From: Alkalibacterium putridalgicola
Lineage (GTDB): Bacteria > Bacillota > Bacilli > Lactobacillales > Carnobacteriaceae_A
Reading direction: 5' to 3'
Assembly: GCF_900109825.1 (NCBI RefSeq)
Contig: NZ_FOBL01000028.1
Span: 1 to 33,065 of the forward strand
DNA: 33,065 nucleotides
Part shown: piece by piece, positions 8,594-26,480 of the stretch
Numbering within the stretch: position 1 is the stretch's first letter
How the letters are laid out: every line of letters begins with the position of its first letter
Position numbers and translations under genes: made by a program
The notes under the pieces: generated by a model
Told to the model about the DNA's origin: nothing
Databases searched by the model: none
Seen by the model: only the letters and a program-made list of their open reading frames with translations

Positions 8594-8626
8594 ATATAAA
8601 AACAGAAAGTGGAAGGAGTGAGAAGC

Positions 8627-9661: not shown

Positions 9662-10355
9662 TTTACCTTTAATCGCTAATATATTTTTAGAGTATTTCGA
9701 CTTTGCATCCATTTCATGGGACAGGGTGTGGGAGGCTACGGAACAGACGCTGTATATGACCGTCGTATCGGTCGTTGCCGTCTTTTTCCTGGGGATTTTG
9801 CTGGGGCTGCTTTTATATGAGACGCGAAACAGCGAATCTGTCTGGGCTTCGATTTTATATAAGGTCGTCGCATTTCTAGTCAATGTGTTTCGTTCGATCC
9901 CTTTTATTATCCTGATCGTTCTATTGATACCCTTCACCAAAGCACTCGTAGGGAGTATGACAGGACCGACAGCCGGCCTGCCAGCCCTGATTCTGTCAGC
10001 CGCTCCCTTTTACGGGCGTCTAGTTGAAGCGGGACTGAGAGAAGTGGATAAAGGTGTGATCGAAGCCGCAGAAGCCATGGGCGCGAATAAATGGGAAGTG
10101 ATCAGGAAAGTTTACATTCCGGAAAGCCTGCCAAATATCATTGCAGGTATCACGGTTACAGGAATCTCACTCGTCGGCTACACAGCGATGGCGGGCGTGA
10201 TTGGTGCAGGCGGACTAGGGAACCTGGCCTTCTTAGAAGGTTTCCAGCGTAGCCGCCCCAATGTTACACTCGTTTCAACAGTCATCATTTTGCTCATCGT
10301 ATTCGTGATTCAGTTCATTGGAGATACATGGGTAAGCAAAATCGATAAACGGTAA
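9651..10355 (+). CDS. metI: Methionine ABC importer permease
   Basis: 234 residues with about five membrane helices, the MetI subunit. The coupling (EAA) loop is visible as EAAEAMGANKWEVIRKVYIPESLPNI split around residues 142-167, which docks on MetN. FRSIPFIILI and AGVIGAGGLG are further family features. The ATG at 9651 has GGAGG at 9637-9641 and overlaps the metN end, indicating translational coupling. Confidence 0.95.
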   Translation: MTNNLPLIANIFLEYFDFASISWDRVWEATEQTLYMTVVSVVAVFFLGILLGLLLYETRNSESVWASILYKVVAFLVNVFRSIPFIILIVLLIPFTKALVGSMTGPTAGLPALILSAAPFYGRLVEAGLREVDKGVIEAAEAMGANKWEVIRKVYIPESLPNIIAGITVTGISLVGYTAMAGVIGAGGLGNLAFLEGFQRSRPNVTLVSTVIILLIVFVIQFIGDTWVSKIDKR

Positions 10356-10396
10356 TAAACGATAAAAATAAAAAAATAATTAAGGGGAGAATGAAA

Positions 10397-11218
10397 ATGA
10401 AAAAAGTTAAAGGATTGGTTATTTTAGGAAGTACGTTACTGCTTGCAGCTTGCGGAAACGGCGAAGGAGAAAGTGCTGAAGAAACACAGACATTGACCAT
10501 CGGCGCCTCCAATGTCCCGCATGCTGAAATATTAGAATTCGTCGCGCCTCAGCTTGAAGAAGAAGGGATCGATCTGGAGATCGAAACGTACAATGACTAT
10601 GTGATCCCTAACCTGGCACTCTCTGATGGGGATCTGGATGCCAACTACTTCCAGCACGTTCCCTATTTTGAATCTCAAGTGGAAGAAAATGACTATGACT
10701 TTGCCAATGCCGGGGGTATCCACCTTGAACCGCTGGGGGCTTATTCCAACCGTCATGAGGATTTAAGCGAACTGCCGGAAGGTGCAACGATCCTGACGAG
10801 CAACAGCGTATCTGACCATGGACGTGTGCTGGGTATCCTTCAAGAAGCTGGACTGATCAAAGTGGATGAGTCAGTCGATTTAGTGGATGCCACATTTGAC
10901 GACATCACTGAAAACGAGTTGAACCTGGAGTTTGAATATGAATACGATGCAGCCCTGCTTCCAACGTTATATGCAGAAGACGAAGGGGACGTGTTCTTCA
11001 TCAACTCGAACTTTGCAGTGGATCACGACATCAGTCCTATCGACGATTCGATCGCTCTTGAAAACACGTCATCCCCTTATGCAAATATCATCGCTGTCCG
11101 TTCAGAAGATGAAGATGATGAACGAATCGCCAAACTAGTCGAAGTCTTGCGTTCAGAAGAAACACAGGAATTTATTTTGGAAACCTGGGACGGAGCCGTT
11201 GTACCGGTAAATGAATAA
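10397..11218 (+). CDS. metQ: Methionine-binding lipoprotein
   Basis: 273 residues, the surface lipoprotein that delivers methionine to MetNI. The signal peptide ends in the lipobox LLLAAC, so the mature protein starts at Cys19 or nearby and is anchored by lipid. Family motifs include TIGASNVPHAEILEF, the DLDANYFQH segment and the C-terminal region following SSPYANIIAVR. The mature N-terminus is acidic (GNGEGESAEE), as expected for a salt-adapted organism. The ATG at 10397 is seven bases from GGGGAG (10384-10389); the ATG at 10391 is too close to it. Confidence 0.95.
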   Translation: MKKVKGLVILGSTLLLAACGNGEGESAEETQTLTIGASNVPHAEILEFVAPQLEEEGIDLEIETYNDYVIPNLALSDGDLDANYFQHVPYFESQVEENDYDFANAGGIHLEPLGAYSNRHEDLSELPEGATILTSNSVSDHGRVLGILQEAGLIKVDESVDLVDATFDDITENELNLEFEYEYDAALLPTLYAEDEGDVFFINSNFAVDHDISPIDDSIALENTSSPYANIIAVRSEDEDDERIAKLVEVLRSEETQEFILETWDGAVVPVNE

Positions 11219-11291: not shown

Positions 11292-11323
11292 TTTTTAATA
11301 GTGACATATTTCACTATTAAAAA
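11292..11323. repeat. 12-bp AT-rich inverted repeat
   Basis: TTTTTAATAGTG and CACTATTAAAAA are perfect reverse complements around eight bases. No T tract follows on the plus strand, so it is not a classical terminator for metQ. It could act on the opposite strand or be a protein site. The remaining AT-rich sequence of 11219-11381 shows no gene. Confidence 0.5.
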
Positions 11324-11381: not shown

Positions 11382-11414
11382 AAGAAGCCTTTATTTAAAG
11401 GCTTCTTTCTTTTT
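11382..11414 (+). terminator. Rho-independent terminator after metNIQ
   Basis: AAGAAGCCTTT, loop ATTT, AAAGGCTTCTT and then TCTTTTT. It isolates the methionine operon from the following cluster. Confidence 0.88.
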
Positions 11415-11449: not shown

Positions 11450-11463
11450 TGTAAGCGTTAACA
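11450..11463 (+). promoter_or_regulatory. cre site 1 (CcpA operator)
   Basis: TGTAAGCGTTAACA fits every position of TGWAANCGNTNWCA. It lies 9 bases upstream of the -35 hexamer. It forms, with site 2, an inverted repeat TGTAAGCGTT/AACGCTTACA. Confidence 0.85.
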
Positions 11464-11471
11464 ACTAAATG

Positions 11472-11500
11472 TTGACAACGCTTACACAAACATATAAAGT
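11472..11500 (+). promoter_or_regulatory. Promoter of the SDR-Liv catabolic cluster
   Basis: TTGACA (11472-11477), 17 bp, TAAAGT (11495-11500). The -35 hexamer is embedded in cre site 2, so CcpA would block RNA polymerase. Confidence 0.75.
11473..11486 (-). promoter_or_regulatory. cre site 2 (CcpA operator)
   Basis: Read on the minus strand, TGTAAGCGTTGTCA matches TGWAANCGNTNWCA at all positions. It overlaps the -35 hexamer of the cluster promoter. Confidence 0.85.
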
Positions 11501-11513
11501 TACTTTACAGACA

Positions 11514-11543
11514 TGAATGACCATTCACCTGAACGTTCATTCA
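11514..11543. promoter_or_regulatory. Double palindrome, probable TetR-family operator
   Basis: TGAATGACCATTCA (11514-11527) has the perfect arms TGAATG/CATTCA. Two bases later TGAACGTTCATTCA (11530-11543) contains the perfect palindrome TGAACGTTCA. Together they also read as one imperfect 30-bp palindrome. They lie just downstream of the -10, a repressor position. The look is close to the TGAATGA...TCATTCA sites of FadR-type TetR regulators. The TetR gene at 21273 is the obvious candidate. Confidence 0.65.
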
Positions 11544-11578
11544 TAGAAAAAAGATGATTTCACAAAGGAGAGAATCAA

Positions 11579-12304
11579 ATGACACGATTATTAAGTGATA
11601 AGGTAGCGGTTGTTACAGGAGGAGCGCGGGGGCTCGGACAAGCGATGTGCGAAGCTTTTTCAGAGGAAGGAGCACGAGTGATCGCTCTGGATATGGGAGA
11701 GATGACTTATAACAAAGAAAATGTCGAGTACATGGAACTGAACGTGACAGACAGTGATGCATGCCAAAGTGTCTATGAGGCGATCATTGAAAAATATGGA
11801 AAAATCGATGTGCTTGTCAATAATGCAGGAATTACTAAAGATGCCTTGACTCGTAAAATGACGGAAGACCAGTGGCAGGCAGTGATCGATGTAAACTTGA
11901 ACGGGGTCTTTAATCTGACCAGACACATTGGACCGCATATGGCTGAGCAGGGAAGCGGCTCGATCATTAATATATCTTCTGTTGTCGGTACATATGGCAA
12001 TATCGGACAGGCCAACTATGCCGCAACCAAAGGCGCTGTTGTCTCTTTAGGAAAAACATGGGCCAAAGAGTTTGCCATGAAAGGGGCGGATGTCCGAGTC
12101 AATACGATTGCTCCAGGTTATACAATGACTGATATATTGAAAACAGTTCCTGAAGATTTACTTGATAAATTCGCTAAGATGACGATGCTTAATCGTCTCG
12201 GTCAGCCTGAAGAAATCGCCAGTGTTGCCTTGTTCTTAGCTAGTGACATGTCTTCATATGTGACAGGACAGCTGATCAGTGTGGATGGAGGAATGAGACT
12301 CTAA
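11579..12304 (+). CDS. SDR oxidoreductase, FabG/PhaB-like
   Basis: 241 residues, a short-chain dehydrogenase/reductase close to 3-oxoacyl-ACP and acetoacetyl-CoA reductases. The cofactor loop TGGARGLG is at 13-20 and NNAG at 81-84. The catalytic residues are N108, S134, Y147 and K151 with the expected 13- and 4-residue spacing. In this context it could interconvert a 3-hydroxyacyl and a 3-oxoacyl compound. A dedicated fatty-acid FabG is less likely because no other fatty-acid synthesis genes are present. AAAGGAG (11564-11570) supports the ATG. Its TAA shares one base with the ATG of the next gene. Confidence 0.85.
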   Translation: MTRLLSDKVAVVTGGARGLGQAMCEAFSEEGARVIALDMGEMTYNKENVEYMELNVTDSDACQSVYEAIIEKYGKIDVLVNNAGITKDALTRKMTEDQWQAVIDVNLNGVFNLTRHIGPHMAEQGSGSIINISSVVGTYGNIGQANYAATKGAVVSLGKTWAKEFAMKGADVRVNTIAPGYTMTDILKTVPEDLLDKFAKMTMLNRLGQPEEIASVALFLASDMSSYVTGQLISVDGGMRL

Positions 12305-13200
12305 TGAAAGAATATGAACTGAAAAAAACAGATGTGAAGACGGGTGAAACACTTGCCTACAGAACGTCTGAAACACAGGGAGAAACGGTCCTGCTCCTTC
12401 ACGGTAACATGAGTTCGTCGGTCCACTTTCAGCCATTGGTGGAACAGTTGGAAAAAGACTTTAATGTTTACGCCCTTGATCTGGTCGGCTTCGGAGACAG
12501 CACGTATAATCGGCAGCTGGAATCACTGGAAGACTTCAGTCGTGACGTTCAGGCATTTATCAAGCAGCTGGATCTCAAAGACATCAATATATTGGGATGG
12601 TCTACAGGCGGCGGGATCGCTCTGGAGGTTGCAGCAGCACTCCCTGACAGGATCCGGCAAGTATTTTTACTTAATTCTGTTGGTTTGCAGGGCTATAAAA
12701 TGTATAAAAAGGGGCCGGATTACAAACCGGTACTGACTGAACGCATTTATAAAAGAGAAGAGATCGAAAAAGATCCTGTTCAGGTTTTACCTGTTCTGCA
12801 CGCATACAATAGCGGGAATAAAGATATGATAAAACAGATCTGGGAAGCAGCGATCTACAACCTCAATAAACCGCAAGAAGAAGACTATGAAGTATTTATC
12901 GACGCCGTAATGAAACAGAGAAACCTGGTCGATGTCGATGTATCGCTTACTCAATTCAACATTACACATGACTTTAATGGTGTTGTGGAAGGATCTGGCC
13001 GCATGGAAAATATACAAGCGCCTATCGTTATTATCCACGGAGAAAAAGACATGATCGTCCCGGTCGAAGAAGCCCATCAATCTAAGAAGTTCCTCAGTGA
13101 TCAAGCCGAACTGATCATAATCGAAGATGTCGGTCATTCTATTATTACGGATGACTTAAATGAACTTACAGAAATAATAGCAAAGCATATAAAAGAATGA
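12304..13200 (+). CDS. Alpha/beta hydrolase 1 (esterase/lactonase-like)
   Basis: 298 residues, a cytosolic serine hydrolase. The oxyanion segment LLLHGNMSSS (around 30-39) precedes the nucleophile elbow G-W-S100-T-G-G. The acid is D249 (GEKDMIVP) and the base H278 (VGHSI). A mobile helical cap lies between about 130 and 230. The nucleophile is Ser, not Cys, which excludes a PHA synthase. Translation is coupled to the SDR through a TAATG overlap, suggesting both act on one substrate. Which ester, lactone or C-C bond is cut is unknown. Confidence 0.85.
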   Translation: MKEYELKKTDVKTGETLAYRTSETQGETVLLLHGNMSSSVHFQPLVEQLEKDFNVYALDLVGFGDSTYNRQLESLEDFSRDVQAFIKQLDLKDINILGWSTGGGIALEVAAALPDRIRQVFLLNSVGLQGYKMYKKGPDYKPVLTERIYKREEIEKDPVQVLPVLHAYNSGNKDMIKQIWEAAIYNLNKPQEEDYEVFIDAVMKQRNLVDVDVSLTQFNITHDFNGVVEGSGRMENIQAPIVIIHGEKDMIVPVEEAHQSKKFLSDQAELIIIEDVGHSIITDDLNELTEIIAKHIKE

Positions 13201-13216
13201 CACAGGAGGATTTGAG

Positions 13217-14242
13217 ATGACAAATGTAGGAATTGCAGGCATTGGTTTATACCTTCCTGAGAAAACGATGTCTGCAAAAGAAATAGCTGAAAAAACGAAA
13301 GGCAACTGGACAGAGAAAGCCGTGAGGGAAAAACTGGGAATCAATCAGATATATGTTGCTGGTGATGGTGAAGGAACACAAGAAATGGGAGCCTTGGCGG
13401 CACTCGACTTGATTGATAATACAGGAGTAGACCCTAAGGACATTGATGTAATCCTATGCTTTGGAGAAGAGTGGAAAGAATACCCGCTTACGACCTCGGC
13501 CATTTATATCCAGGACAGAATCGGAGCTGAAAATGCCTGGGGGATAGATGTACAGAATAGATGCTGCACAACGGTTACCGCATTGAAGATGGCAAAAGAT
13601 ATGCTGATAGCTGATGAGTCCATCGATACGGTTTTAATTGCCGGAGGATACAGGAATGGCGATTTGATCGACTACTCTGATCCGATGAATTCGATGATGT
13701 ATAACCTGTCAGCCGGTGGGGGAGCGCTCCTGCTTAAAAAGGATCACGATGAGAATCTACTCCTAGGGTCACATATCATCAGCGACGGATCGCTTGCCCG
13801 GACGGCAGGCGTGGAAGTCGGAGGGATCGACAACCCTTATACAGCAGAAAATGTGGAGAACTCGAAGCGTACATTAAAATTGCTTGAACCGGTAAAAATG
13901 AAAGAACGGCTGAATGATGTTTCCATGACTAACTGGATGAAATGTATCGACCATGCTCTAGAAAAAAGTGAAATGACCCGGGAGGATATCGATTATTTGA
14001 ATGTTTTGCATATGAAGCGTTCAGGGCATAAAGCAATACTTGAGGACCTGAATCTCACCCCGGATCAGACGGTTTATCTTGAGGACTACGGTCATTTAGG
14101 GCAGATCGATCAGATTCTATCACTGAAATCTGGTCTGGAACAAGGCAAAATCAAAGAAGGAACGGTTGTCTGCTCGATCGCGGCCGGTATTGGTTATGTG
14201 TGGGCAGCTGACATCATCAAATGGGGGAAAGCGGATGGCTAA
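13217..14242 (+). CDS. KAS III-like thiolase-fold protein with altered active site
   Basis: 341 residues with the thiolase fold of FabH-type enzymes. The active Cys is C116 (DVQNRCCTTV), at the same distance from the conserved Asp as Cys112 of E. coli FabH, and is followed by a second Cys117. H265 (NVLHMKRSGH) takes the catalytic His position. The usual Asn is replaced by H293 in EDYGHLGQ. The C-terminus IAAGIGYVWAA is the glycine loop. With Cys-His-His instead of Cys-His-Asn, the reaction is probably not classical fatty-acid initiation. Linkage to an importer, CoA-transferase and thiolase argues for acyl-CoA metabolism. AGGAGG at 13204-13209 supports the ATG. Confidence 0.8.
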   Translation: MTNVGIAGIGLYLPEKTMSAKEIAEKTKGNWTEKAVREKLGINQIYVAGDGEGTQEMGALAALDLIDNTGVDPKDIDVILCFGEEWKEYPLTTSAIYIQDRIGAENAWGIDVQNRCCTTVTALKMAKDMLIADESIDTVLIAGGYRNGDLIDYSDPMNSMMYNLSAGGGALLLKKDHDENLLLGSHIISDGSLARTAGVEVGGIDNPYTAENVENSKRTLKLLEPVKMKERLNDVSMTNWMKCIDHALEKSEMTREDIDYLNVLHMKRSGHKAILEDLNLTPDQTVYLEDYGHLGQIDQILSLKSGLEQGKIKEGTVVCSIAAGIGYVWAADIIKWGKADG

Positions 14243-15116
14243 CTTTATTGGTGTCTTTTTAAGAAGTTTGGAATATGGAAGTTTTTACGCGTTGTCAGCC
14301 TTAAGTATCATATTGGTCTATAAGACCTCTTACACGACAAACTTTGCTCAAGCGACACTGGGTATGTTCAATACCTTCCTGGTTGCTACACTCGTGATGA
14401 GACAGGGGTGGAGCCTTTATGCAGCTATTCCCATCGGCATAGTGAGTGCAGTCATATTGGGTGTGCTGATCGATATCGTGATCATTAGACGAGCGACTAA
14501 AGCTGGGCCCGTTGGAAAGCAGATCATCACCTTAGGACTTATTTCCGTTTTTCTCGGACTGACACCCATAATCTTTGGAGTCGATAATCTCTCGCTGCCG
14601 CGGTTTGTTTCAAGCGGAACGCTGACGATCATGGGAACGCCGTTTTCCTATAATGCACTCTTCAATATCTTATTCGGGATCTTTATCATGTTGACTATGT
14701 TCGCGACGATCCAAAAAACAAAAATCGGCTTAGCTATCCGTACAACGGCATCAAATGAGACAACTGCACGGATAATGGGGGTGCCGACCAAAACAGTCAC
14801 CATGGCTGCATGGGCGGTCGCAATTGTTCTCTCAATGATCAGTGGATTGATGACTGCACCTTATTCTTCCGTATCACTAACATTTATGAATGATGTACAA
14901 ATCACAGCCTTTCTGGCTACAGTCGTCGGAGGGTTTGCAACCTTTCACGGTCCGGTCATAGCGGCGTATGGCATTTCAGTTTTACTGAACATTTTTCAAG
15001 TTTATATGCCAAGTGGTACGATCTGGGGCAAACCGCTGCTGTATGCTGTCCTGCTGCTGATTATGTACTTTAAACCTTACGGTATATTCGGCAAACAACG
15101 ATTGAAGAAGGTGTAA
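14235..15116 (+). CDS. livH: LivH-type ABC permease
   Basis: 293 residues with about eight membrane helices, a permease of the branched-chain amino-acid/urea importer group. Typical are the early GSFYALSALSIILVYK and, near the end, GPVIAAYGISVLL. The ATG at 14235 follows GGGGGA and overlaps the stop of the KAS III-like gene by eight bases; an in-frame ATG at 14166 lies inside that gene and is rejected. The symbol reflects family only: the surrounding genes make a non-amino-acid substrate possible. Confidence 0.88.
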   Translation: MANFIGVFLRSLEYGSFYALSALSIILVYKTSYTTNFAQATLGMFNTFLVATLVMRQGWSLYAAIPIGIVSAVILGVLIDIVIIRRATKAGPVGKQIITLGLISVFLGLTPIIFGVDNLSLPRFVSSGTLTIMGTPFSYNALFNILFGIFIMLTMFATIQKTKIGLAIRTTASNETTARIMGVPTKTVTMAAWAVAIVLSMISGLMTAPYSSVSLTFMNDVQITAFLATVVGGFATFHGPVIAAYGISVLLNIFQVYMPSGTIWGKPLLYAVLLLIMYFKPYGIFGKQRLKKV

Positions 15117-16174
15117 TGATGAAAAAAATAATCAAAAATCCTTATAGTCATTTTATCCTGCTTGGGCTGGTATTACTCACATTACCTTATCTGGCGGAAG
15201 CCGGAGCAATAAGAAACAGTACGGTTACGGTAATAGGAACGACCATCATCTACACGATCGCCGCACTTGGTCTGAACGTCCTGCTTGGTTTCTCTGGTCT
15301 GATTTCTCTGGGGACAGCCGGATTTATGGGACTGGCTGCATATATTTCAGCTTATGTCACTGAAACGATGGCTCTGCCGTTTGAAGTAGCGGTAATGGCT
15401 GCCATCGGGATACCTACGCTCTTAGGGATATTGGTCGGCATACTGTCCTTGAAGTTCGAAGGGATTTACCTTGGTATCGCTACACTGGTCGTGGCTGAGA
15501 TATTAAGAGAAATCTTTATCAACGTGACTCCCTTTACAGGGGGGGCAACGGGCGCCTTGGCAGGTCGGCCGGTGCTTGCTGGCACGTTTCAATTGAATAG
15601 AATACAGACGTACTATTTGATCGTAGTCGTTATGGTACTGATCTTCATCCTGATACACAATTTGACTAAAGGCCATTTAGGAAGAGCTTTAAATGCAATG
15701 AGAGGGTCCGAAGCTGCAGCTCAGGCTATGGGAGTAAATATTTTCAAGTACCGCCTGATTGCTTTCGGGATCGCGACCGTTTTAGCCGCCGTTTCAGGTG
15801 TGCTATATGTCCACTATGTGGGACTGTCTTATCCGACGACCTGGAATCTTATGCTGTCGCTGGATTTTCTAGCCATCATCGTAGTTGGCGGGTTCCGATC
15901 GATTTTTGGGACATTCATCGGTTCATTTATCATTTTTGCAATGAGTGAATTGTTTTTGAAACCCATCCCCGCGTTAGCCAATATCACGCCACTGGTAAAA
16001 GGGATACTGATTATTATTTTTATCCTCTATTACCCAAACGGGCTTGCCAATATCAAACATCAGGTATCACACTGGCTGGTCAGACGTAAAGGGAAACGCG
16101 ATGCCTTTGGCCAGACAAAAGCTGAGAAGAAAAATTTGACCCGAGCTGAGGTGAGAGAAAATGACACCGTCTAA
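15116..16174 (+). CDS. livM: LivM-type ABC permease
   Basis: 352 residues, the second permease of the importer, with about nine to ten helices. The family segments TIIYTIAALGLNVLLG, SGLISLGTAGFMGL and GRALNAMRGSE (coupling loop) are present. About 35 hydrophilic, basic residues extend past the last helix. The start ATG shares one base with the livH stop; ATG 15119 is an alternative. The end overlaps livG by 14 bases. Confidence 0.88.
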   Translation: MMKKIIKNPYSHFILLGLVLLTLPYLAEAGAIRNSTVTVIGTTIIYTIAALGLNVLLGFSGLISLGTAGFMGLAAYISAYVTETMALPFEVAVMAAIGIPTLLGILVGILSLKFEGIYLGIATLVVAEILREIFINVTPFTGGATGALAGRPVLAGTFQLNRIQTYYLIVVVMVLIFILIHNLTKGHLGRALNAMRGSEAAAQAMGVNIFKYRLIAFGIATVLAAVSGVLYVHYVGLSYPTTWNLMLSLDFLAIIVVGGFRSIFGTFIGSFIIFAMSELFLKPIPALANITPLVKGILIIIFILYYPNGLANIKHQVSHWLVRRKGKRDAFGQTKAEKKNLTRAEVRENDTV

Positions 16175-16970
16175 GACGAAAGAACTGGCATTGAAGATCG
16201 AGGATGTATCCATCGCCTTTGGGGGACTGAAAGCTGTGGATAATCTCTCGTTTGCGATAGAACGCCATGAGATTTTTGGATTGATCGGGCCGAATGGCGC
16301 AGGAAAAACAACGATTTTCAACTGTATCACACAATTTTACAAGGCTGACTCCGGCAGTATCCATTTTATTAATGCAAAAGGAAAAGAAACAGACTTAATG
16401 GATCTGAGTGTACATGAAATCATTGATGAAGGCATCGTACGCACCTTTCAGAACGTGGAGCTCATTAGAGAACTCTCGATCATGGACAATGTATTGATCG
16501 GTGCGCATCATGTAATGAAGCAGCCTTTGCTGGGGCAGCTTTTTAACAGAAAAGCTATCAGGAAAGATGAAGCAGAATCCAGGGAGAAAGCAGAAAAAAT
16601 ATTAGCTTTCCTTGATATCGAGCATTTGAAAGACCTCATTGCAGGGAGTCAGCCGTATGGGGTTCAGAAAAAAGTAGAGATCGCTCGAACGCTCATGTCC
16701 GATCCGGAACTCATCATTCTTGACGAACCGGCAGCGGGGTTGAATGATACGGAAACAAAAGAACTGGCCATGCGTATAAAGCAGATAAGAGAAACCTACC
16801 AGACCACGATATTACTGGTCGAGCATGATATGAGGCTCGTCATGGATATCTGCGACCATATCTGTGCGATCTCGTTTGGAAAAAGAATAGCGGTGGGTAC
16901 CCCTAAAGAAATCCAGTCGAATCCGGAAGTTCAGAAAGCTTATTTGGGAGAGGAGGGAGAACTTGAGTAG
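16161..16970 (+). CDS. livG: LivG-type ABC ATPase
   Basis: 269 residues, one of the two ATPases of the importer. Walker A GPNGAGKTT is at 43-51, Walker B is LIILDEPAAGLN, and the switch His is in LVEHDM. The signature region reads QPYGVQKKVEIAR, the LPYG-Q variant that is typical of LivG rather than the usual LSGGQ. GAGGTGAG is located before the ATG inside the end of livM. Confidence 0.9.
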   Translation: MTPSKTKELALKIEDVSIAFGGLKAVDNLSFAIERHEIFGLIGPNGAGKTTIFNCITQFYKADSGSIHFINAKGKETDLMDLSVHEIIDEGIVRTFQNVELIRELSIMDNVLIGAHHVMKQPLLGQLFNRKAIRKDEAESREKAEKILAFLDIEHLKDLIAGSQPYGVQKKVEIARTLMSDPELIILDEPAAGLNDTETKELAMRIKQIRETYQTTILLVEHDMRLVMDICDHICAISFGKRIAVGTPKEIQSNPEVQKAYLGEEGELE

Positions 16971-17691
16971 AGAACCGATATTGGAAATCAAAAATCTGGA
17001 AGTGCACTATGGCCCGATCCGGGCTTTAAAAGCAATCGATATCACGGTTTATGAAGGACAGGTCGTTGCACTCCTGGGCGCAAACGGTGCCGGGAAAACA
17101 ACCACACTAAGGACACTTTCAGGTGTGGTCAAGCCAACTAACGGAACGATTTTATTTAAAGGGGAACGATTGGATAAACTGGCTCCAGAAAAAATCACAT
17201 CCAGTGGGATCAGTCAGTCACCTGAAGGGAGGCAGATATTCGGCGACTTAACGGTAGAAGAAAACTTGAAAATAGGGGCATACATCATCAAAAGCAAAAA
17301 AACGCTGCAGGAAAATTTCAAGAAGGTGTATGGCTATTTTCCAGTCCTAAGAGAAAGAAAGAACCAGGTGGCGTCGACCCTTTCCGGTGGGGAACAGCAG
17401 ATGCTGGCGATCGGACGGGCATTGATGAATAATCCGAAAGTTCTTCTTCTTGATGAACCTTCCCTTGGACTGGCTCCGCTTTTAGTTAAAGAGATTTTAG
17501 AAATAGTGAACACTATCGCAAAAGATGGTGTGACAGTCGTTATCGTTGAGCAGAATGCAGCACAGACACTGAAGATCGCTGACTATGCATATGTACTGGA
17601 AGTAGGCTCGATCAGTAAAGAAGGTGAAGCCAGTGAGTTGATGAATGACTCCTCATTGGCGGAAGCTTACTTAGGAACGGTTACAAACTAA
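16963..17691 (+). CDS. livF: LivF-type ABC ATPase
   Basis: 242 residues, the second ATPase. Walker A GANGAGKTT is at 39-47; the signature is LSGGEQQMLAIGRAL, Walker B VLLLDEPSLGLAP, and VIVEQNA replaces the H-loop region as is usual for LivF. The start is a TTG at 16963 with GGAGGGAG at 16951-16958, overlapping the livG stop by eight bases. Confidence 0.9.
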   Translation: MSREPILEIKNLEVHYGPIRALKAIDITVYEGQVVALLGANGAGKTTTLRTLSGVVKPTNGTILFKGERLDKLAPEKITSSGISQSPEGRQIFGDLTVEENLKIGAYIIKSKKTLQENFKKVYGYFPVLRERKNQVASTLSGGEQQMLAIGRALMNNPKVLLLDEPSLGLAPLLVKEILEIVNTIAKDGVTVVIVEQNAAQTLKIADYAYVLEVGSISKEGEASELMNDSSLAEAYLGTVTN

Positions 17692-17721
17692 AAATCAGAC
17701 AAAAGTCTAGGAGGAAAAAAC

Positions 17722-18999
17722 ATGATGAAAGCAAAATGGGCAAGGATTTTAGGAACAGCAGCAGTTGCATTGACACTGGCCGCCTGTGGAAACGGAAACG
17801 ATGATACGGATACGAGCGCTGGGGAAGATACAGGGTCTAGCGATACTGAAACAGAAGAAAGCGTAGAACCGGCACAAGGTATAACGGATAATTCCATTAA
17901 AGTAGGAAACTCGGCTGCAACCTCGGGTGCTCTAGCTCCAGTAGGTTCACCTTTTAACGCTGGTATCCGTGCATACTTTGAGATGGTCAATGATGACGGC
18001 GGCGTACACGGAAGAGAAATCGAATTTGTGCATACTGATGATGAATTCGATCCGGCGATCGGTCGTGCGGCCCTTCAAACTTTAGTGGAAGATGAAGAAG
18101 TCTTCGCACTGGTCGGTCATTTTGGTACACCTGTTATTGCAGCGACGATTGATGATATCAAAGACTATGGGATCCCTGCAGTTTATTTTGCAGCGGGTAT
18201 CGGTCAGCTTTATAATGCACAAGCTGAAGGCAGTGACCGTGTAGCAATGCCGGTTCAGCCCATCTACACGACTGAAGGAGAAATGATGCTCTCCCGTGCA
18301 GTCGGTGACTTTGGGGCTGAAAAAGTCGGGGTCATCTATACAAACGATGATGCTGGCCTTGACATGCTGAAAGGTGCAGAACAGAAAGCCGAAGATCTGG
18401 GAGTTGAGCTGGTTTCTGAACAGGTGCCTGCAGGAGCCACGGATGTATCGGCAGCTGTTACATCTATAGTTAATGAAGATGTCGATTTTGTCATTGGTGC
18501 AGCCATTCAGAACACGATCCCGACGATCGTCAAAGCGCTTGTCGCTCAAGGCAGCACGGCTGATCTGATCACCTCTTATGTCAACGTTGATGCCAGCATT
18601 TCTCAGCAAATCTGGAATGACATCGATGGACAATTTGATGTTTACGGAAATGGCTGGGTAGATCTTGAATCAGAAGAATCACTGGAAAGTTTAGCTATGA
18701 TGAATGAGTGGATCGATGATGAATATGATAATAATGTATACGCTATGACAGGCTGGATCGCAGGTCACTTCTTTACAGAAGGGATGGATCGCTTAGGTGA
18801 TGAAACACCGACATGGGAAGCCTACCTCGATGCCATGGAATCCGAGCCGATCAATAATCCGTTTGGTGGAGAGATCGACTTCGGAGATGGACAGCGTGTA
18901 GGGACTCAAGAAATGAATCTCTCCCGCATAGAAGGCTCAACGGAATGGGTAGTTGTGGAAGAGCTGAAGAGCATTGAAGAAATTTTAGGGAATAATTAA
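17722..18999 (+). CDS. livK: Periplasmic-binding-protein lipoprotein, LivK/AmiC type
   Basis: 425 residues, the solute receptor of the importer. The lipobox LTLAAC gives a lipid-anchored Cys22. A linker of about 30 residues, mostly Asp, Glu, Ser and Thr, follows. The type 1 periplasmic fold begins with ITDNSIKVGNSAATSG, and GIRAYFEMVNDDGGVHG is a family hallmark. LivK, AmiC and UrtA share this fold but bind amino acids, amides or urea, so the ligand is open. AGGAGG precedes the ATG. It is the last gene before a terminator-like hairpin, consistent with high expression of the receptor. Confidence 0.88.
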   Translation: MMKAKWARILGTAAVALTLAACGNGNDDTDTSAGEDTGSSDTETEESVEPAQGITDNSIKVGNSAATSGALAPVGSPFNAGIRAYFEMVNDDGGVHGREIEFVHTDDEFDPAIGRAALQTLVEDEEVFALVGHFGTPVIAATIDDIKDYGIPAVYFAAGIGQLYNAQAEGSDRVAMPVQPIYTTEGEMMLSRAVGDFGAEKVGVIYTNDDAGLDMLKGAEQKAEDLGVELVSEQVPAGATDVSAAVTSIVNEDVDFVIGAAIQNTIPTIVKALVAQGSTADLITSYVNVDASISQQIWNDIDGQFDVYGNGWVDLESEESLESLAMMNEWIDDEYDNNVYAMTGWIAGHFFTEGMDRLGDETPTWEAYLDAMESEPINNPFGGEIDFGDGQRVGTQEMNLSRIEGSTEWVVVEELKSIEEILGNN

Positions 19000-19018
19000 T
19001 TAGTTTGAATTACAATAG

Positions 19019-19045
19019 AGGGGCTAGGGAAACCTAGTCCTTTCT
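19019..19045 (+). terminator. Partial terminator between livK and the CoA-transferase
   Basis: GGGGCTAGG, loop GAAA, CCTAGTCC, then TTTCTT. The tail is short, so it may only attenuate read-through to the next gene. No separate promoter is clear in the 84-base gap. Confidence 0.5.
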
Positions 19046-19083
19046 TGTAGCAGAGTATAAAAATCGTAAGGAAGGTGTTTATA

Positions 19084-20421
19084 ATGGATTCAATGACTAT
19101 CATCACACCAGAAGAAGCAGTGAATCTGGTAAAGTCGAATGATGAAATCGTTACGGGATTAGGCTGTTCAGAAGGGCGCAGCTTTATGGAATCCCTTCAT
19201 CTGGTCGCTGACAAGGTGGAGAATGTATCGGTCACGAACTGTCTGCCTATGAATAAATTTGATTTTATGGAAGAAAAGTATAAAGATGTGTTCTTCATCA
19301 ATGGCTGGTTCTATTCTCCCGCTGTCAGAGCTTTGCATAGAAATGGGAATGCCAGTTTCATACCCAACAATCTGCATTTTGCAGCCACCAAACGCTTGGC
19401 ACATAAACAGCCGTCGATCTATGTCGGTGTCTGTTCAGCTGTGGATAATCACGGGTTTGTTTCGCTGTCTATGGGGAACACTTATGAAAAACGGATGATG
19501 GATGCAGCAGATATCGTGATTCTGGAAACGAACAAAAAATTCCCGCGGACATTCGGAGATGTAGAGATCCATGTTTCAGAAGTCGACTATTTCATCGAAG
19601 CCGATTACGAGGTGCCTGAACTGCCGCATGTCGATTCGAATGAGAAAGATAAGAAAATCGGACAGTATATTGCAGATTACATCAAAGATGGCGATAACCT
19701 TCAGTTTGGGATCGGCGGGATACCTAACGCCGTCGCTGCCGCCTTGTATGACAAGAAAAACTTAGGTATCCATACGGAAATGCTGACTTCCGAGATTGCA
19801 AAGCTGGCTCAAGCCGGTGTCATCAACGGTTCAAAGAAAACCCTCCATAAAGGGAAAATCGTTACGACATTCATCATGGGCAATCAGCTGCTTTATGATT
19901 TTGTAGATGACAACCCGTCGGTGATGGTCCTTGATGGTAACTATGTCAACCACCCGAGCATTATTGCTCAAAATGACAACCAGGTCTCGATCAATACGAC
20001 ACTGGAGATCGATCTGACCGGTCAATGTGCATCGGAGTCCATCGGTCCGATCCAGTATAGCGGGACAGGGGGACAGGCAGACACAGCACGTGGGGCACAG
20101 GACGCAAAAAACGGAAAATCCTTTATCGCCTTATATTCAACCGCTATGATCAGAAATAAAGAGACGGGTGAACGCGAAGAGAGAAGCAAGATCGTTCCGT
20201 TCCTCACACCAGGAGCAGTTGTTTCACTGCAGCGTAATGATGTGGACCATGTCGTAACAGAATATGGCGTGGCAGAATTGAGAGGGACGACGGTCAACGA
20301 ACGTGTAGAGCGCCTCATTGCCATCGCTCATCCTAAATTTAGAGACGAGCTGTGGCAGCAGGCAAAAGAATTGAACATAATAGGTGGGGGATTAGATGCA
20401 ATTTACGCTGAACAGCGGTAA
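19084..20421 (+). CDS. Acetyl-CoA hydrolase/transferase family CoA-transferase
   Basis: 445 residues, the two-domain CoA-transferase family that includes 4-hydroxybutyrate and butyrate:acetate CoA-transferases. These enzymes move CoA from acetyl-CoA to a short carboxylic acid through a glutamyl thioester. The motif GIGGIPNAVAAAL is near residue 209. The LEIDLTGQ segment near residue 308 is the highly conserved block expected to hold the active Glu, and SGTGGQ follows. The ATG at 19084 has AAGGAAGG eight bases upstream; the GTG at 19075 is inside that site. The end overlaps hydrolase 2 by 26 bases. Confidence 0.85.
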   Translation: MDSMTIITPEEAVNLVKSNDEIVTGLGCSEGRSFMESLHLVADKVENVSVTNCLPMNKFDFMEEKYKDVFFINGWFYSPAVRALHRNGNASFIPNNLHFAATKRLAHKQPSIYVGVCSAVDNHGFVSLSMGNTYEKRMMDAADIVILETNKKFPRTFGDVEIHVSEVDYFIEADYEVPELPHVDSNEKDKKIGQYIADYIKDGDNLQFGIGGIPNAVAAALYDKKNLGIHTEMLTSEIAKLAQAGVINGSKKTLHKGKIVTTFIMGNQLLYDFVDDNPSVMVLDGNYVNHPSIIAQNDNQVSINTTLEIDLTGQCASESIGPIQYSGTGGQADTARGAQDAKNGKSFIALYSTAMIRNKETGEREERSKIVPFLTPGAVVSLQRNDVDHVVTEYGVAELRGTTVNERVERLIAIAHPKFRDELWQQAKELNIIGGGLDAIYAEQR

Positions 20422-21208
20422 AAAACTGTATTATGAGATCTATGGAAAAGGCGACCCTTTAGTCATACTTAACGGCATCATGATGTCTACTGCCAGCTGG
20501 AGAGAATTCGTCCAACCTTTATCGGAGCATAACCAACTGGTGCTGATCGACTTTTTAGACCAGGGACAGTCTGATAAAATGAACGATCCCTACACGCATG
20601 ATCTTCAGATCGAAGCGGTCAGAGAACTGCTTTCAGAGGTCACTGACAAACCTGTCAATTTATTCGGGATTTCTTACGGAGGAGAAATCGCTATTCAGTA
20701 TGCCCTGCGTTATCCAACAGCCGTAAAAAAGCTCGTTTTATTCAACACCTCGGCGGAAACCTCCTATTGGCTGGAAGAAGTAGGCAATGCCTGGAACAAA
20801 GCTACTCATGATCCCGAAGCCTATTACTTAACGACGATCCCTTTCATATACTCACCTTTGTTCTTTACGGAAAACAGAGAGTGGATGGAGAAGAGAAAAG
20901 AGATACTGCTGCCTCTATTTGGTGACAAAAAATTTATCCGTTCCATGATCCGGCTGACTGACAGTTCAGTGGGGTATGATGTAAAGGACCGATTGTCCGA
21001 ACTGACCATGCCGTCACTGATCGTGGGAGCGGAGTATGATTTTGTCACTCCGTTTTACCAGCAGGAATATTTGAATGATCATATTAAGGGCTCTGAACTC
21101 ATCTATGTACCGAAAAGCGGCCATGCGATCATGTACGAAAAACCGCGCTTGTTCGTGAGTATACTGAAGGGGTTTGTCAGTGATATGAAGACAAACTATG
21201 TATTATAG
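20396..21208 (+). CDS. Alpha/beta hydrolase 2
   Basis: 270 residues, a second cytosolic serine hydrolase in the cluster. The elbow is G-I-S93-Y-G-G, the acid D215 (GAEYDFVTP) and the base H243 (KSGHAIMYE). The oxyanion segment is LNGIMMS with Asn where His is typical. It is only distantly similar to hydrolase 1, so it probably has another step or substrate. The start overlaps the CoA-transferase end by 26 bases with GGTGGGGG upstream, indicating tight coupling with CoA transfer. Confidence 0.83.
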   Translation: MQFTLNSGKKLYYEIYGKGDPLVILNGIMMSTASWREFVQPLSEHNQLVLIDFLDQGQSDKMNDPYTHDLQIEAVRELLSEVTDKPVNLFGISYGGEIAIQYALRYPTAVKKLVLFNTSAETSYWLEEVGNAWNKATHDPEAYYLTTIPFIYSPLFFTENREWMEKRKEILLPLFGDKKFIRSMIRLTDSSVGYDVKDRLSELTMPSLIVGAEYDFVTPFYQQEYLNDHIKGSELIYVPKSGHAIMYEKPRLFVSILKGFVSDMKTNYVL

Positions 21209-21215
21209 AAAGATC

Positions 21216-21244
21216 TTGATCGTTTTGTGATAAAATGATATAAA
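21216..21244 (+). promoter_or_regulatory. Promoter of tetR-thiolase
   Basis: TTGATC (21216-21221), 17 bp, TATAAA (21239-21244), 28 bases before the TetR start codon. No copy of the TGAATGA palindrome is seen here. Confidence 0.55.
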
Positions 21245-21272
21245 TTTGATTGTTTGTTAAAGGAGAAGTACG

Positions 21273-21884
21273 ATGAAGTATGTGAATCAACCTAAAACAG
21301 AAAAAGGCCAAGAAACACTAGATAAAATCATTCTGGAAGCAGAACGGTTATTCAGTGAGAAAGGGTACTACAAGACTTCGATCAAAGACATAACCAAAGC
21401 CGCCGAAGTAGGCATCGGGACTTTTTATATTTATTTTGAAGATAAACACAGCCTGTATCAGGCTATTCTATCAGAATACGGTCACTTTATCAGAAAAACG
21501 ATCGCTGAGAGTGTAAGGACAGCTGAGACGCGTCTCGAAGCAGAACGAATGGGTATCGAAACGTTCATCCGGTTAGTCAGGAAACGCCCGTCGATGTATA
21601 ATGTGATCTGGCAGGCGCTTTACGTCGACAAAAAATTATTTGTCGATTACTATACTAAATTTTCAGAAAATTATATAAAACAGATCCTGATTGCTCAGGA
21701 AAAAGGTGAAATCATAGCAGACTATGATCCAGAGGCCTTATCTTACATGCTGATGGGGATCACTAACTTCATTGGTTTAAGATATGCGATTTTTGATGAT
21801 CAGACTGACCTTGATCCGATACTGGATGAAGTCATGGATATGCTGGTCAATGGAATATACACACATAATGAAAGGATGGAGTAA
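21273..21884 (+). CDS. TetR-family transcriptional regulator
   Basis: 203 residues. The N-terminal helix-turn-helix covers about residues 14-60 and includes TSIKDITKAAEVGIGTFYIYF, the standard TetR recognition region. The remaining all-helical domain would bind an effector, possibly an acyl-CoA, as in FadR-type relatives. It sits between the catabolic genes and the thiolase, whose ATG follows its stop codon directly. It is the natural candidate to bind the double palindrome at 11514-11543. AAAGGAG supports the ATG. Confidence 0.88.
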   Translation: MKYVNQPKTEKGQETLDKIILEAERLFSEKGYYKTSIKDITKAAEVGIGTFYIYFEDKHSLYQAILSEYGHFIRKTIAESVRTAETRLEAERMGIETFIRLVRKRPSMYNVIWQALYVDKKLFVDYYTKFSENYIKQILIAQEKGEIIADYDPEALSYMLMGITNFIGLRYAIFDDQTDLDPILDEVMDMLVNGIYTHNERME

Positions 21885-23099
21885 ATGAACAAAGTATACA
21901 TTGCAGGAGCTAAACGCACGCCGATCGGATCGTTTTTAGGGGCACTGAAAGATGTGTCAGCTTCAGAACTGGGAAGCTATGCGATTAAAGGGGTGCTTGA
22001 ACAAAGTGGCATCAGTCATGAAGACATCGATGAAGTGGTCTTAGGCAACGTTTTGCCGGCCGGCCAGGGTCAGGGCGTTGCCAGGCAAGCCTCGATCAAA
22101 GCAGGAATCCAAGTGGAAGTACCGGCTTATTCTCTGAATATGGTCTGCGGGAGTGGACTGAAAACAGTGATAAACGCATACCTTGGTGTAAAAGCCGGGG
22201 AGTATCAAGCCATCATTGCCGGAGGGACCGAATCCATGAGTCAGGCACCTTACCTGATTCCGGGAAGCACGCGATCCGGACATAAGATGGCAGGCTATAA
22301 AGTCGGCGATCACATGCTGGACGATGCCTTGACGGATGCTTTTGAAGGGTATCACATGGGTGTAACGGCTGAAAATATTGTGGAACGCTACGGCATCACG
22401 CGTGAAGAACAGGACAGTTTTGCCATCACATCACAAAAGCGTTCGATCGAAGCGGTGGATAATGGTTCATTCAAAGACGAGATCGTTCCTGTTGAAACAA
22501 AAGTACGTCGAGAGACGGTGGTCGTGGATACGGATGAATACCCGAACCGTAAAACATCTGAAGACAAACTGAATAGTCTGCGTCCGGCCTTTAAAAAAGA
22601 CGGCTCCGTCACAGCGGGCAATGCGTCCGGCATCAACGATGGGGCCAGTGCGACCTTAGTTGTTGGAGAAGAGTATATGCAAGCGAACGACTTGAAACCG
22701 CTGGTCGAGATCGTAGCCGTCGGACAAGGCGGTGTGGATCCTTCAGTCATGGGTCTGGGACCGACCCCGGCCATCAAGCAGGCAATGAAGAAAGCTGATA
22801 TCACTTTTGAGGATATCGATGTGTTTGAACTGAATGAGGCCTTTGCTTCACAAAGTCTGGGCGTCATTAAAGAGATATCCGATGAATTCGGCGTCAGCAA
22901 AGAGTATATGCTTGAACGCACCAATCTGAACGGTGGTGCGATCGCTCTCGGCCATCCGGTGGGAGCCAGCGGGAACCGTATCCTGGTCACACTGATTCAC
23001 ATCATGAAAAAGCGCGGACTGAAATACGGTCTGGCTTCTCTTTGCATCGGCGGCGGTATGGGTGTGGCTGTTCTGGTGAAAAATACAGACGTCGAGTAA
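21885..23099 (+). CDS. Acetyl-CoA acetyltransferase (thiolase)
   Basis: 404 residues, a type II thiolase. It either condenses two acetyl-CoA or cleaves acetoacetyl-CoA (or another 3-oxoacyl-CoA). The active residues are C88 (NMVCGSG), H357 (ALGHPVGASG) and C387 (CIGGGMG). The 30-residue spacing between the last two equals that of the Zoogloea enzyme (His348, Cys378). FELNEAFASQ is another hallmark. No mevalonate or butyrate genes accompany it, so cleavage in the catabolic cluster is likely, with mevalonate supply an alternative. The start directly abuts the TetR stop, with AAAGGATGGAG upstream. Confidence 0.92.
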   Translation: MNKVYIAGAKRTPIGSFLGALKDVSASELGSYAIKGVLEQSGISHEDIDEVVLGNVLPAGQGQGVARQASIKAGIQVEVPAYSLNMVCGSGLKTVINAYLGVKAGEYQAIIAGGTESMSQAPYLIPGSTRSGHKMAGYKVGDHMLDDALTDAFEGYHMGVTAENIVERYGITREEQDSFAITSQKRSIEAVDNGSFKDEIVPVETKVRRETVVVDTDEYPNRKTSEDKLNSLRPAFKKDGSVTAGNASGINDGASATLVVGEEYMQANDLKPLVEIVAVGQGGVDPSVMGLGPTPAIKQAMKKADITFEDIDVFELNEAFASQSLGVIKEISDEFGVSKEYMLERTNLNGGAIALGHPVGASGNRILVTLIHIMKKRGLKYGLASLCIGGGMGVAVLVKNTDVE

Positions 23100-23135: not shown

Positions 23136-23155
23136 TGAATGGACAAAACTAAATA

Positions 23156-23261
23156 GTCTTCAGGGCAGGGTGCAAGTCCCTACCGGTGGTATAGCCCACG
23201 AGCCGCAAGGCAGATTCGGTCAGATTCCGAAGCCGACAGTATAGTCTGGATGAAAGAAGAC
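23156..23261 (+). promoter_or_regulatory. FMN riboswitch aptamer (RFN element)
   Basis: The closing helix P1 is GTCTTC (23156-23161) with GAAGAC (23256-23261). Between them are the conserved blocks AGGGCAGGGTG, CCCTACCGGTGG, AGCCCACGAGCCG, CAGATTCGGT and CCGAAGCCGACAGT. FMN binding normally terminates transcription of riboflavin genes, and ribD follows. Confidence 0.97.
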
Positions 23262-23333
23262 AGTATCAATGACATAACTATCAGTCTGAATAGTCCATGG
23301 AGGAGTGTTCAGCTAAACTGACGTTGTATTTTG

Positions 23334-23468: not shown

Positions 23469-23490
23469 AATGCAGGGAAAGGATAGATCA

Positions 23491-24585
23491 ATGGATAGAA
23501 AATACATGAAACGTGCGCTGGAACTGGCTGAGAAAGGGCGGGGGTTCACTTCTCCCAATCCAATGGTCGGTGCTGTGATCGTTAAAAATGGTCAGATCAT
23601 CGGTGAAGGCTATCATGAAAGATTTGGTGAAGCCCATGCAGAGGTCAACGCAATCGATTCAGCCACAGAACCGGTGGAGGGGGGGACGATATATGTCACC
23701 CTTGAACCGTGTTCTCATTACGGAAAGACACCTCCCTGTTCCGATCTGATCATCGACAGGAAACTGAAAAAAGTCGTGGTCGCAGCCATGGATCCTAACC
23801 CGCTTGTTTCCGGCAGGGGGCTCGACCGCCTGAGAAAAGCAGGGATCGAGGTCGTTGAAGGTGTGCTGGAAGCAGAGAGCAATAAGCTGAACGAGGTGTT
23901 CAATAAATTCATCACGACCCAGACCCCTTTTGTCCTGATGAAGTATGCGATGTCCCTGGATGGCAAGATCGCAACACAAACAGGGGATTCGAAGTGGATC
24001 TCTTCAGAAAAATCCAGAGAACATGCGCATCACCTGAGAGGCTATTTATCAGGCATCATGGTAGGCATCGGTACGGTATTGAAAGACGATCCTCAGCTCA
24101 CCTGCCGGGTGCCGGGCTACCCGAACCCGGTGCGCATCCTACTGGATAGTCAGTTACGTGTCCCGCTTGATTCCAAAATCTTGAAAGATCAAGATGAAGC
24201 CCAGACGCTGATCCTTACAACAGAACATGCACCGCTGAGCATGCGGCGGGAGATAGAAAAACTGGGTGTGGAAGTTCTGACCGTTCCTGAACGGGATGAA
24301 AAAGTGGATTTGAAAGCAGCACGTTCTGAACTTGGAAAAAAAGGAATAGATAGTATCCTGCTTGAAGGTGGCGGCACCTTGAATGCAGCGGCTTTAGAAG
24401 CGGGGATCGTGGATAAAGTCACTATCTATATCGCACCGAAAATCATCGGGGGTGCAGAAGCCATATCACCAGTCATGGGACGTGGAGTGGAAACGATCAA
24501 AGACGCCTATGGTCTTTCAGACTTGCAGGTGACAAAATTAAACGAAGATATATTTGTAGAAGGCTATTTACGGGAGGAAAACTGA
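23491..24585 (+). CDS. ribD: Riboflavin biosynthesis deaminase/reductase
   Basis: 364 residues, the bifunctional second and third steps of riboflavin synthesis. The N-terminal deaminase has zinc ligands H49 (HAEVNA), C74 and C83 (EPCSHYGKTPPC). The C-terminal NADPH-dependent reductase starts around 145 with MKYAMSLDGKIA and has ILLEGGGTLN. Length is normal. The ATG at 23491 has AAAGGAT at 23478-23484; the in-frame ATG at 23470 lies before that site, at the foot of terminator 2. The stop codon directly precedes the ribE start. Confidence 0.96.
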   Translation: MDRKYMKRALELAEKGRGFTSPNPMVGAVIVKNGQIIGEGYHERFGEAHAEVNAIDSATEPVEGGTIYVTLEPCSHYGKTPPCSDLIIDRKLKKVVVAAMDPNPLVSGRGLDRLRKAGIEVVEGVLEAESNKLNEVFNKFITTQTPFVLMKYAMSLDGKIATQTGDSKWISSEKSREHAHHLRGYLSGIMVGIGTVLKDDPQLTCRVPGYPNPVRILLDSQLRVPLDSKILKDQDEAQTLILTTEHAPLSMRREIEKLGVEVLTVPERDEKVDLKAARSELGKKGIDSILLEGGGTLNAAALEAGIVDKVTIYIAPKIIGGAEAISPVMGRGVETIKDAYGLSDLQVTKLNEDIFVEGYLREEN

Positions 24586-25236: not shown

Positions 25237-25256
25237 TAAAAGATAGGAGCAAAGAG

Positions 25257-26450: not shown

Positions 26451-26480
26451 AAATTATATTCTGGAAGGAATGGATGAAAA

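Follow-up and report, generated by a model that had tools for sequence, protein, structure and literature searches.

A cluster of twelve plus-strand genes (11579-23099) lies on one contig of the 2.6 Mb genome of Alkalibacterium putridalgicola, within a stretch of 33,065 nucleotides (NZ_FOBL01000028.1, positions 1 to 33,065) that we refer to as the window. The cluster combines a Liv-type importer with enzymes that may act on a short ester. The first gene encodes a FabG-like short-chain dehydrogenase/reductase (SDR; 11579-12304), predicted to be an NAD(H)-linked (R)-3-hydroxyacyl-coenzyme A (CoA) dehydrogenase. It is followed by a hydrolase of the intracellular short-chain-length polyhydroxyalkanoate (PHA) depolymerase family with the lipase box GWSTG (12304-13200) and by a thiolase-fold enzyme resembling 3-ketoacyl-acyl carrier protein (ACP) synthase III (KAS III; 13217-14242). 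The importer genes encode two permeases, LivH-type (14235-15116) and LivM-type (15116-16174), both matching PF02653, two ATPases, LivG-type (16161-16970; PF00005 and PF12399) and LivF-type (16963-17691; PF00005), and a LivK-type lipoprotein binding protein of the Peripla_BP_6 family (17722-18999; PF13458) with the motif LAACG and Cys22. A CoA-transferase of the 4-hydroxybutyrate/butyryl-CoA:acetate type (19084-20421; PF13336/PF02550), a second, esterase-like alpha/beta hydrolase with the motif GISYG (20396-21208; PF00561), a TetR regulator (21273-21884) and an acetyl-CoA C-acyltransferase (thiolase, 21885-23099; TIGR01930, 460.2 bits against a cut-off of 240.55) complete the set.

The content, order and place of the twelve genes had been given by a first-pass annotation and were borne out by the open reading frames (ORFs), by Pfam for the first ten genes and by NCBIfam for all twelve. 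The TAATG and 8-26-base overlaps it described are present at six junctions: one base (TAATG) at SDR/hydrolase and LivH/LivM, eight bases at KAS/LivH and LivG/LivF, 14 bases at LivM/LivG and 26 bases at CoA-transferase/second hydrolase. The widest intergenic gap is 84 bases (75 if the CoA-transferase starts at a GTG), and the proposal that the genes form one regulated unit is supported. Two starts were revised. LivH begins better at ATG 14235 than at the listed TTG 14166, the query sequence used for LivH having begun one codon late, at 14238, and the CoA-transferase begins better at ATG 19084, behind GGAAGG, than at GTG 19075.

Hydrolases, KAS III-like enzyme and associated enzymes

The first hydrolase scored 364.8 bits against the model for intracellular short-chain-length PHA depolymerases (NF050089, curated cut-off 300), and its best match in the PDB was a poly(3-hydroxybutyrate) (PHB) depolymerase (8ynv, E 2.3e-72). 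All five copies from relatives, which were chosen by hand, also passed the cut-off. The earlier call of a hydrolase stands and can be narrowed, by curated score, to this family. Lipase-box PHA depolymerases carry a Trp before the catalytic Ser (Gx1Sx2G, with x1 being Trp), as described in PMC2666664. This Trp is present in the window's enzyme, in 51 of 51 labelled copies from anaerobe-type loci (46 by pattern, 5 by eye) and in 22 of 26 copies from aerobic loci, the other four having GHS and being less than 30% identical.

Genomes with this hydrolase near a KAS gene seldom encode a PHA synthase. NF050089 was over its cut-off in 37 of 398 genomes of the class (39 genes), and 24 of these genes, in 24 genomes, were within 10 kb of KAS. 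The PHA synthase model TIGR01836 was over cut-off in 2 of the 24 genomes with a KAS-adjacent gene, compared to 9 of the 13 with the gene elsewhere (Fisher p = 2.4e-4); the former group contained one more synthase match of 244 bits, below the cut-off, and one fragment match. A further set of 50 cluster genomes included three with a class III synthase (TIGR01836) above the cut-off, and class I synthase reached its cut-off in none of 76. The window's own genome had no match with TIGR01836 or TIGR01838. Because the first hydrolase passes the cut-off for a PHB depolymerase, yet its genome has no PHA synthase match, the ester is probably imported.

In a tree of 82 hydrolase sequences, the ten copies from PHA synthase-bearing genomes fell in three places, with two outside the rest, one among the aerobic rows, and seven in one clade between the aerobic and window-type rows, a placing that rests on SH-aLRT values of 81-86. 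There is therefore no clean split by setting, which does not in itself prove equal specificity, and as read here one hydrolase family serves two settings, stored polymer and imported ester. The window's enzyme resembles the intracellular native short-chain PHA depolymerases (the Bacillus thuringiensis PhaZ seed, NF050089 and 8ynv) in curated score and lipase-box Trp and shares this tree with the copies from synthase-bearing genomes. It differs from them in that its gene adjoins an importer, the genomes are mostly without PHA synthase and the substrate is probably taken up.

The KAS III-like protein belongs to a curated family (NF005308/PRK06840; 466.6 bits, cut-off 315) and, judged by its residues, is no ordinary FabH. 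Its scores are far below the curated cut-offs for FabH (120.8 against 249) and for 3-hydroxy-3-methylglutaryl (HMG)-CoA synthase (54.8 against 244). The genome also encodes a FabH and an HMG-CoA synthase (526 bits, cut-off 360.35) that exceed their curated cut-offs. Cys116 of the KAS III-like protein, which has the thiolase fold of both proteins, aligns with the Cys of each, and Glu85 falls where the HMG-CoA synthase has the Glu of its FGTES motif. The Cys-His-Asn triad of FabH is absent, as His293 aligns with the Asn of both FabH and HMG-CoA synthase. In each of the two alignments, His265 lies a column away from the His of FabH, and its catalytic role is therefore assumed; the His region of HMG-CoA synthase aligned poorly with this protein. 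The FabH Asn position was occupied by His in 39 of 39 aligned KAS rows, in which the nucleophile was Cys in 25 and Ser in 14, and Cys116, His265, His293, Glu84 and Glu85 were invariant in 35 aligned Cys-type sequences. The replacement of Asn by His together with Glu85 argues against ordinary malonyl-ACP condensation and for Claisen, aldol or acyl-transfer chemistry on CoA esters.

The 14 Ser-form rows (L069, L070, L082, L087, L091, L093, L094, L096-L099, L101, L103 and L104) are often encoded beside MaoC, an AMP-forming ligase and a Liv importer, and sometimes in the same cluster as the Cys form. In the rows shown, they have Pro at the Glu85 position.

An Asp at the end of beta-2 is the usual NAD mark in SDRs. 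It is present in the window's SDR and was found by pattern in 55 of 61 and 21 of 25 SDRs; of the ten that did not match the pattern, seven had the Asp by eye and three were cut at the N end. The closest solved relatives are FabG-like enzymes, 4nbt from Acholeplasma laidlawii for the window's SDR (373.8 bits over 238 residues) and 4nbu from Bacillus sp. SG-1 for that of L067, a locus of aerobic layout. Unlike the role proposed here, the NADH-dependent FabG study tied to 4NBU reportedly concerns fatty-acid production and covers 4NBT as well. Both structures are among the NAD-bound dehydrogenases in PMC5264612, which for 4NBU cites a paper titled on NADH-dependent FabG. The CoA-transferase is nearest to 4-hydroxybutyrate CoA-transferase (best PDB match 3gk7, 325.3 bits), and this broader relationship holds even though the cut-off for butyryl-CoA:acetate CoA-transferase (TIGR03948) was missed (280.9 against 674.8). 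The best PDB match of the second hydrolase was MGS-M2 (4q3l, 259.2 bits).

The importer and the cluster in other genomes

The importer has all five subunits and domains of the LivHMGFK (HAAT family) branched-chain amino-acid importers. It is unlike them in that curated Liv cut-offs were missed (LivG 281 against 362, LivF 244.4 against 441, LivK-type 49.8 against 477 and LivM 110.2 against 366), that cluster-linked Liv genes form their own clades (SH-aLRT 100), and that the linked enzymes are not those of amino-acid catabolism. These differences support the earlier suggestion that the importer probably does not serve amino-acid nutrition. Cys22 of LivK was invariant in 29 aligned sequences. LivH alone and concatenated LivHMGF each gave two separate cluster clades. 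In the concatenated tree, 21 of the 41 rows of window type were used, along with 28 of the 29 aerobic rows and 30 of the 40 from the background; ten background loci were dropped as one of the four genes was missing or of unfit length. Recruitment of the importer on two occasions is not claimed, as a one-clade constraint was not rejected (approximately unbiased test, p = 0.44 and 0.093).

The KAS family was over its cut-off in 3 of 60 genomes of a relatives set including the window's own, all from one genus (3 of 12 genus members). Across the class, 52 of the 398 genomes sampled had a KAS over it, representing 26 of 146 genera. When named genomes were scanned with an alignment of 18 KAS sequences, at least 579 relatives were confirmed. 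The best 80 of these at least 579 were kept, many of them metagenome-assembled, and their hosts include Alkalibacterium, Vagococcus, Erysipelothrix, Clostridia, Tissierellia, Izimaplasma, Acholeplasmataceae, Actinotalea, Propionibacteriaceae and Synergistaceae. The nearest named relative among the matches listed was Alkalibacterium kapii (KAS 84% identical).

Co-occurrence of the genes is conserved, and the cluster thereby passes the first-pass annotation's own test on this point, under which a lack of co-occurrence in other genomes would have refuted it. Genes were counted within 9 kb of KAS in 80 KAS-centred loci of other genomes, many of which are cut by contig ends. Labels are best BLAST matches to the query proteins; those of low identity for PhaZ, the second hydrolase, SDR and TetR could belong to other paralogues, and the ORF chooser led to an under-count of LivF. 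LivH was found in 73, LivM in 65, LivG in 64, LivK in 55 and LivF in 47 of the loci, and at least one Liv gene was present anywhere in the locus in 76. Among the enzymes, SDR and CoA-transferase were each found in 59 loci, the second hydrolase in 52, the PhaZ-type hydrolase in 43 and thiolase in 40; TetR was near KAS in 43, MaoC in 16, EtfA in 12, and acyl-CoA dehydrogenase and EtfB in 11 each. The 43 loci of at least 18 kb had CoA-transferase in 40, LivK in 39, LivH in 38, the second hydrolase in 36, PhaZ in 31, SDR in 30, TetR in 28, thiolase in 25 and MaoC in 10. For comparison, none of 40 background Liv loci (9.0-11.5 kb each) contained KAS, depolymerase-type hydrolase or CoA-transferase above 35% identity, and three had an SDR at 35-37% identity. 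These loci were hand-picked from the listed LivH matches, a choice biased towards Liv genes that are closer to the window's LivH than the Liv genes of the aerobic clusters are.

Of the 51 other genomes of the class that have KAS, 37 supplied 38 regions, from which further layouts were read; KAS was labelled in 35 of the regions, L074, L086 and L103 having been lost through ORF choice. In layout II, a LAL-type regulator precedes LivK-G-F-H-M, KAS, PhaZ, SDR, an AMP-forming ligase and, in a few, a thioesterase. Layout III consists of TetR, an AMP-forming ligase, often MaoC, a KAS with Ser for Cys, and LivK-G-F-H-M, and the two layouts are combined in L069, L070, L082 and L091. In L077 (5833-16527), a KAS-SDR-thiolase set is flanked by two Opp/Dpp-type importers (SBP_bac_5) and not by a Liv importer. 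This variety indicates that the enzyme set can go with different activation enzymes and, at least once, has a different importer class nearby. Locus L114 adds MaoC, acyl-CoA dehydrogenase, EtfB and EtfA, which are parts of a branch from (R)-3-hydroxyacyl-CoA to butyryl-CoA.

Genes for NHL/SMP-30-like beta-propellers adjoin the Ser-type KAS in L092 (7509-9527) and lie between LivF and LivK in L141 (14574-16433); these proteins are possibly lactonases or binding proteins. Sigma-54-dependent activators adjoin the cluster in L160 (4614-7094) and L182 (3323-4708), and L160 also encodes a protein with an MCP-signal domain.

Promoter region and putative operators

The promoter region of the operon starts at about 11447, 3' of a terminator-like hairpin (11382-11407). 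Two sites resembling the catabolite-responsive element (cre) of CcpA-mediated repression are located here. The first, TGTAAGCGTTAACA (11450-11463, plus strand), is an exact match to TGWAANCGNTNWCA, which we take to be the cre consensus. The second, TGTAAGCGTTGTCA (11473-11486, minus strand), is also an exact match and overlaps the -35 hexamer of a sigma-70-like promoter, TTGACA-17-TAAAGT (11472-11500, plus strand; 10/12 in a consensus scan). These are the only two exact cre-like matches in the window. Promoter-like matches numbered 33 in the region compared to 23.1 in shuffles, so the sigma-70-like call is weak taken alone.

Downstream is a putative double TetR-type operator, TGAATGACCATTCA-CC-TGAACGTTCATTCA (11513-11544, plus strand), an inverted repeat that forms a 32-base double palindrome. 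The half-motif TGAAYGNNCRTTCA occurs exactly twice in the whole 2.6 Mb genome, both times in this promoter. When one mismatch was allowed, a whole-genome search gave 38 sites per strand compared to 12 for a reversed-pattern control. At the same stringency the motif preceded 15 of 67 other clusters, where shuffles gave a mean of 0.2 and a highest value of 1 (60 sets), and was absent from all 138 upstream stretches that served as controls. Its core, TGAA-N6-TTCA, preceded 29 of the 67, compared to 0.6 in shuffles and 2 of 138 controls. The TetR protein had weak matches to the ScbR, FadR and PsrA models, with no curated cut-off reached among the 21 families listed. The operon's dedicated TetR switch, retained in some of the relatives, and probable sugar repression here together suggest a carbon-source operon, in which we infer from these motifs that both the cre-like sites and the TetR operator are in use.

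A proposed ester pathway and its alternatives

The reading that we favor, and hold to be evenly balanced between right and wrong, is that the operon supplies carbon from esters that other organisms release, either oligoesters of (R)-3-hydroxybutyrate or short 3-hydroxyacyl esters close to these. The substrate, the direction and order of the steps, and the ligands of TetR and LivK are all deduced. Preferred sugars would repress transcription, probably through the cre-like sites; the operon's TetR would repress it as well, with relief on the appearance of an intermediate that may be an acyl-CoA. LivK would capture the substrate and LivHMGF import it, after which the depolymerase-type hydrolase and the second esterase would cut the ester to free 3-hydroxy acids. 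The CoA-transferase would move CoA from acetyl-CoA onto these acids, the SDR would oxidise (R)-3-hydroxyacyl-CoA with NAD+, and the thiolase would cleave acetoacetyl-CoA to give two molecules of acetyl-CoA. Some relatives, through MaoC, acyl-CoA dehydrogenase and EtfAB, could divert part of the flow to butyryl-CoA as an electron sink. The KAS III-like enzyme may carry out a further CoA-linked acyl step. The breakdown outlined in the first-pass annotation, in which a short 3-hydroxy or 3-oxo acyl ester is hydrolysed, activated with CoA, oxidised and split by thiolysis, fits the neighbouring genes, including MaoC, acyl-CoA dehydrogenase and EtfAB in the minority of loci that have them.

Fermentation of 3-hydroxybutyrate by Ilyobacter polytropus proceeds by CoA activation, oxidation and thiolysis with a butyrate side branch, which the proposed steps resemble. 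To our knowledge, neither an importer-linked KAS III nor an intracellular depolymerase is known in that fermentation. Fermenters of this type are described as not degrading PHB itself. The cluster looked undescribed at first pass, and a search of the open-access literature, which leaves most subscription papers outside its range and so is not proof, found no description of it. It joins known enzyme families in an arrangement without a description found in that literature. If the proposal is correct, it would provide a genetic basis on which bacteria, most of them without PHA synthase, could feed on small esters from PHB, a storage polymer that others have made, and would thereby supply a missing link in the turnover of bioplastics and storage polymers. 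It would also give a likely catabolic role to the conserved 'KAS III' family, curated as 3-oxoacyl-ACP synthase and numbering at least 579 relatives in the scan of named genomes, and a role to a group of Liv importers that would be annotated as amino-acid transport.

Several observations weigh against this proposal. The plain use of 3-hydroxybutyrate oligomers needs neither a KAS nor a second hydrolase. The first hydrolase is about 33-39% identical to KAS-adjacent copies in aerobic Bacilli, and its specificity could be shifted; two of the ten copies from synthase genomes fall outside all KAS-linked hydrolases in the tree, and no labelled PhaZ was found within 9 kb in 37 of the 80 loci, many of which are truncated by contig ends. 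The window's genome has no match to Esterase_PHB (PF10503), so that breakdown of external polymer would be left to others and the cell would depend on the oligomers they make. Exact cre-like sites precede only 3 of the 67 other clusters (shuffles 0.03; controls 1 of 138), and the operator motif, with one mismatch allowed, only the 15 noted above. In L175 and L183, KAS and CoA-transferase occur with no Liv gene seen in 21 kb, and in L151 (20.8 kb) no SDR, Cat1-type CoA-transferase or hydrolase was seen, KAS being paired with a thiolase and a two-subunit 3-oxoacid CoA-transferase.

The last three loci speak for a possible, though rather unlikely, alternative in which the operon imports and cleaves a different short ester, a lactone or a 1,3-dicarbonyl acid. 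The key step would then be a CoA-dependent cleavage of retro-Claisen or aldol type by the KAS III-like enzyme, releasing acetoacetate or acetyl-CoA. The position of the KAS Glu in the HMG-CoA synthase Glu column and the beta-propellers of L092 and L141 are also consistent with such a reaction, but on its own it leaves the recurrent PHB depolymerase family, the FabG-type SDR and MaoC unexplained. We consider it doubtful that the KAS III-like protein is an undescribed catabolic thiolase-fold enzyme, defined by Cys, two His and an HMG-CoA synthase-like Glu and having a Ser sister form, which would take imported (oligo)esters or beta-keto compounds and transfer their hydroxyacyl or acetoacetyl groups straight to CoA, sparing the energy of activation, as part of a widespread cross-feeding on PHB breakdown products.

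The FabH- and FabG-like labels, the Liv-type importer and the AMP-forming ligases that aerobic relatives have in place of the CoA-transferase could instead point to scavenging for fatty-acid synthesis, where imported short branched acids would become CoA esters and then primers elongated by the KAS III-like enzyme and a FabG-like reductase. This is improbable, since the KAS has His where FabH has Asn, the genome already has its own FabH, and the thiolase, the depolymerase, the cre-like sites and the acyl-CoA dehydrogenase and EtfAB of relatives point to catabolism. A role in mobilising PHB granules that the cell itself stores, the importer alongside being unrelated, would suit the depolymerase family, the thiolase and the resemblance of the SDR to FabG/acetoacetyl-CoA reductase, but was rejected as very improbable because the genome has no class III or class I PHA synthase match and cluster genomes have few. 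Equally remote is a plain branched-chain amino-acid importer that came by chance to lie next to lipid genes, as its best labels being Liv-type is outweighed by the separate Liv clades, the 40 background loci without KAS, depolymerase or CoA-transferase, and an operator specific to this operon.

The operon is bordered by two units with RNA leaders. On its 5' side, a T-box leader (8295-8561, 113.3 bits) precedes a MetN-MetI-MetQ importer (8609-11218), and that neighbour is therefore probably a tRNA-regulated amino-acid importer. Directly 3' of the thiolase, a flavin mononucleotide (FMN) riboswitch (23152-23265, 118.1 bits) precedes a ribD/riboflavin operon (23470-26945). A 16-base inverted repeat without spacer, 94% complementary, lies between MetQ and the operon (11292-11323). 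At the start of the window, positions 1-250 seem to be made of short repeated units, with a minus-strand frame that repeats HIPTFC and SFTKG.

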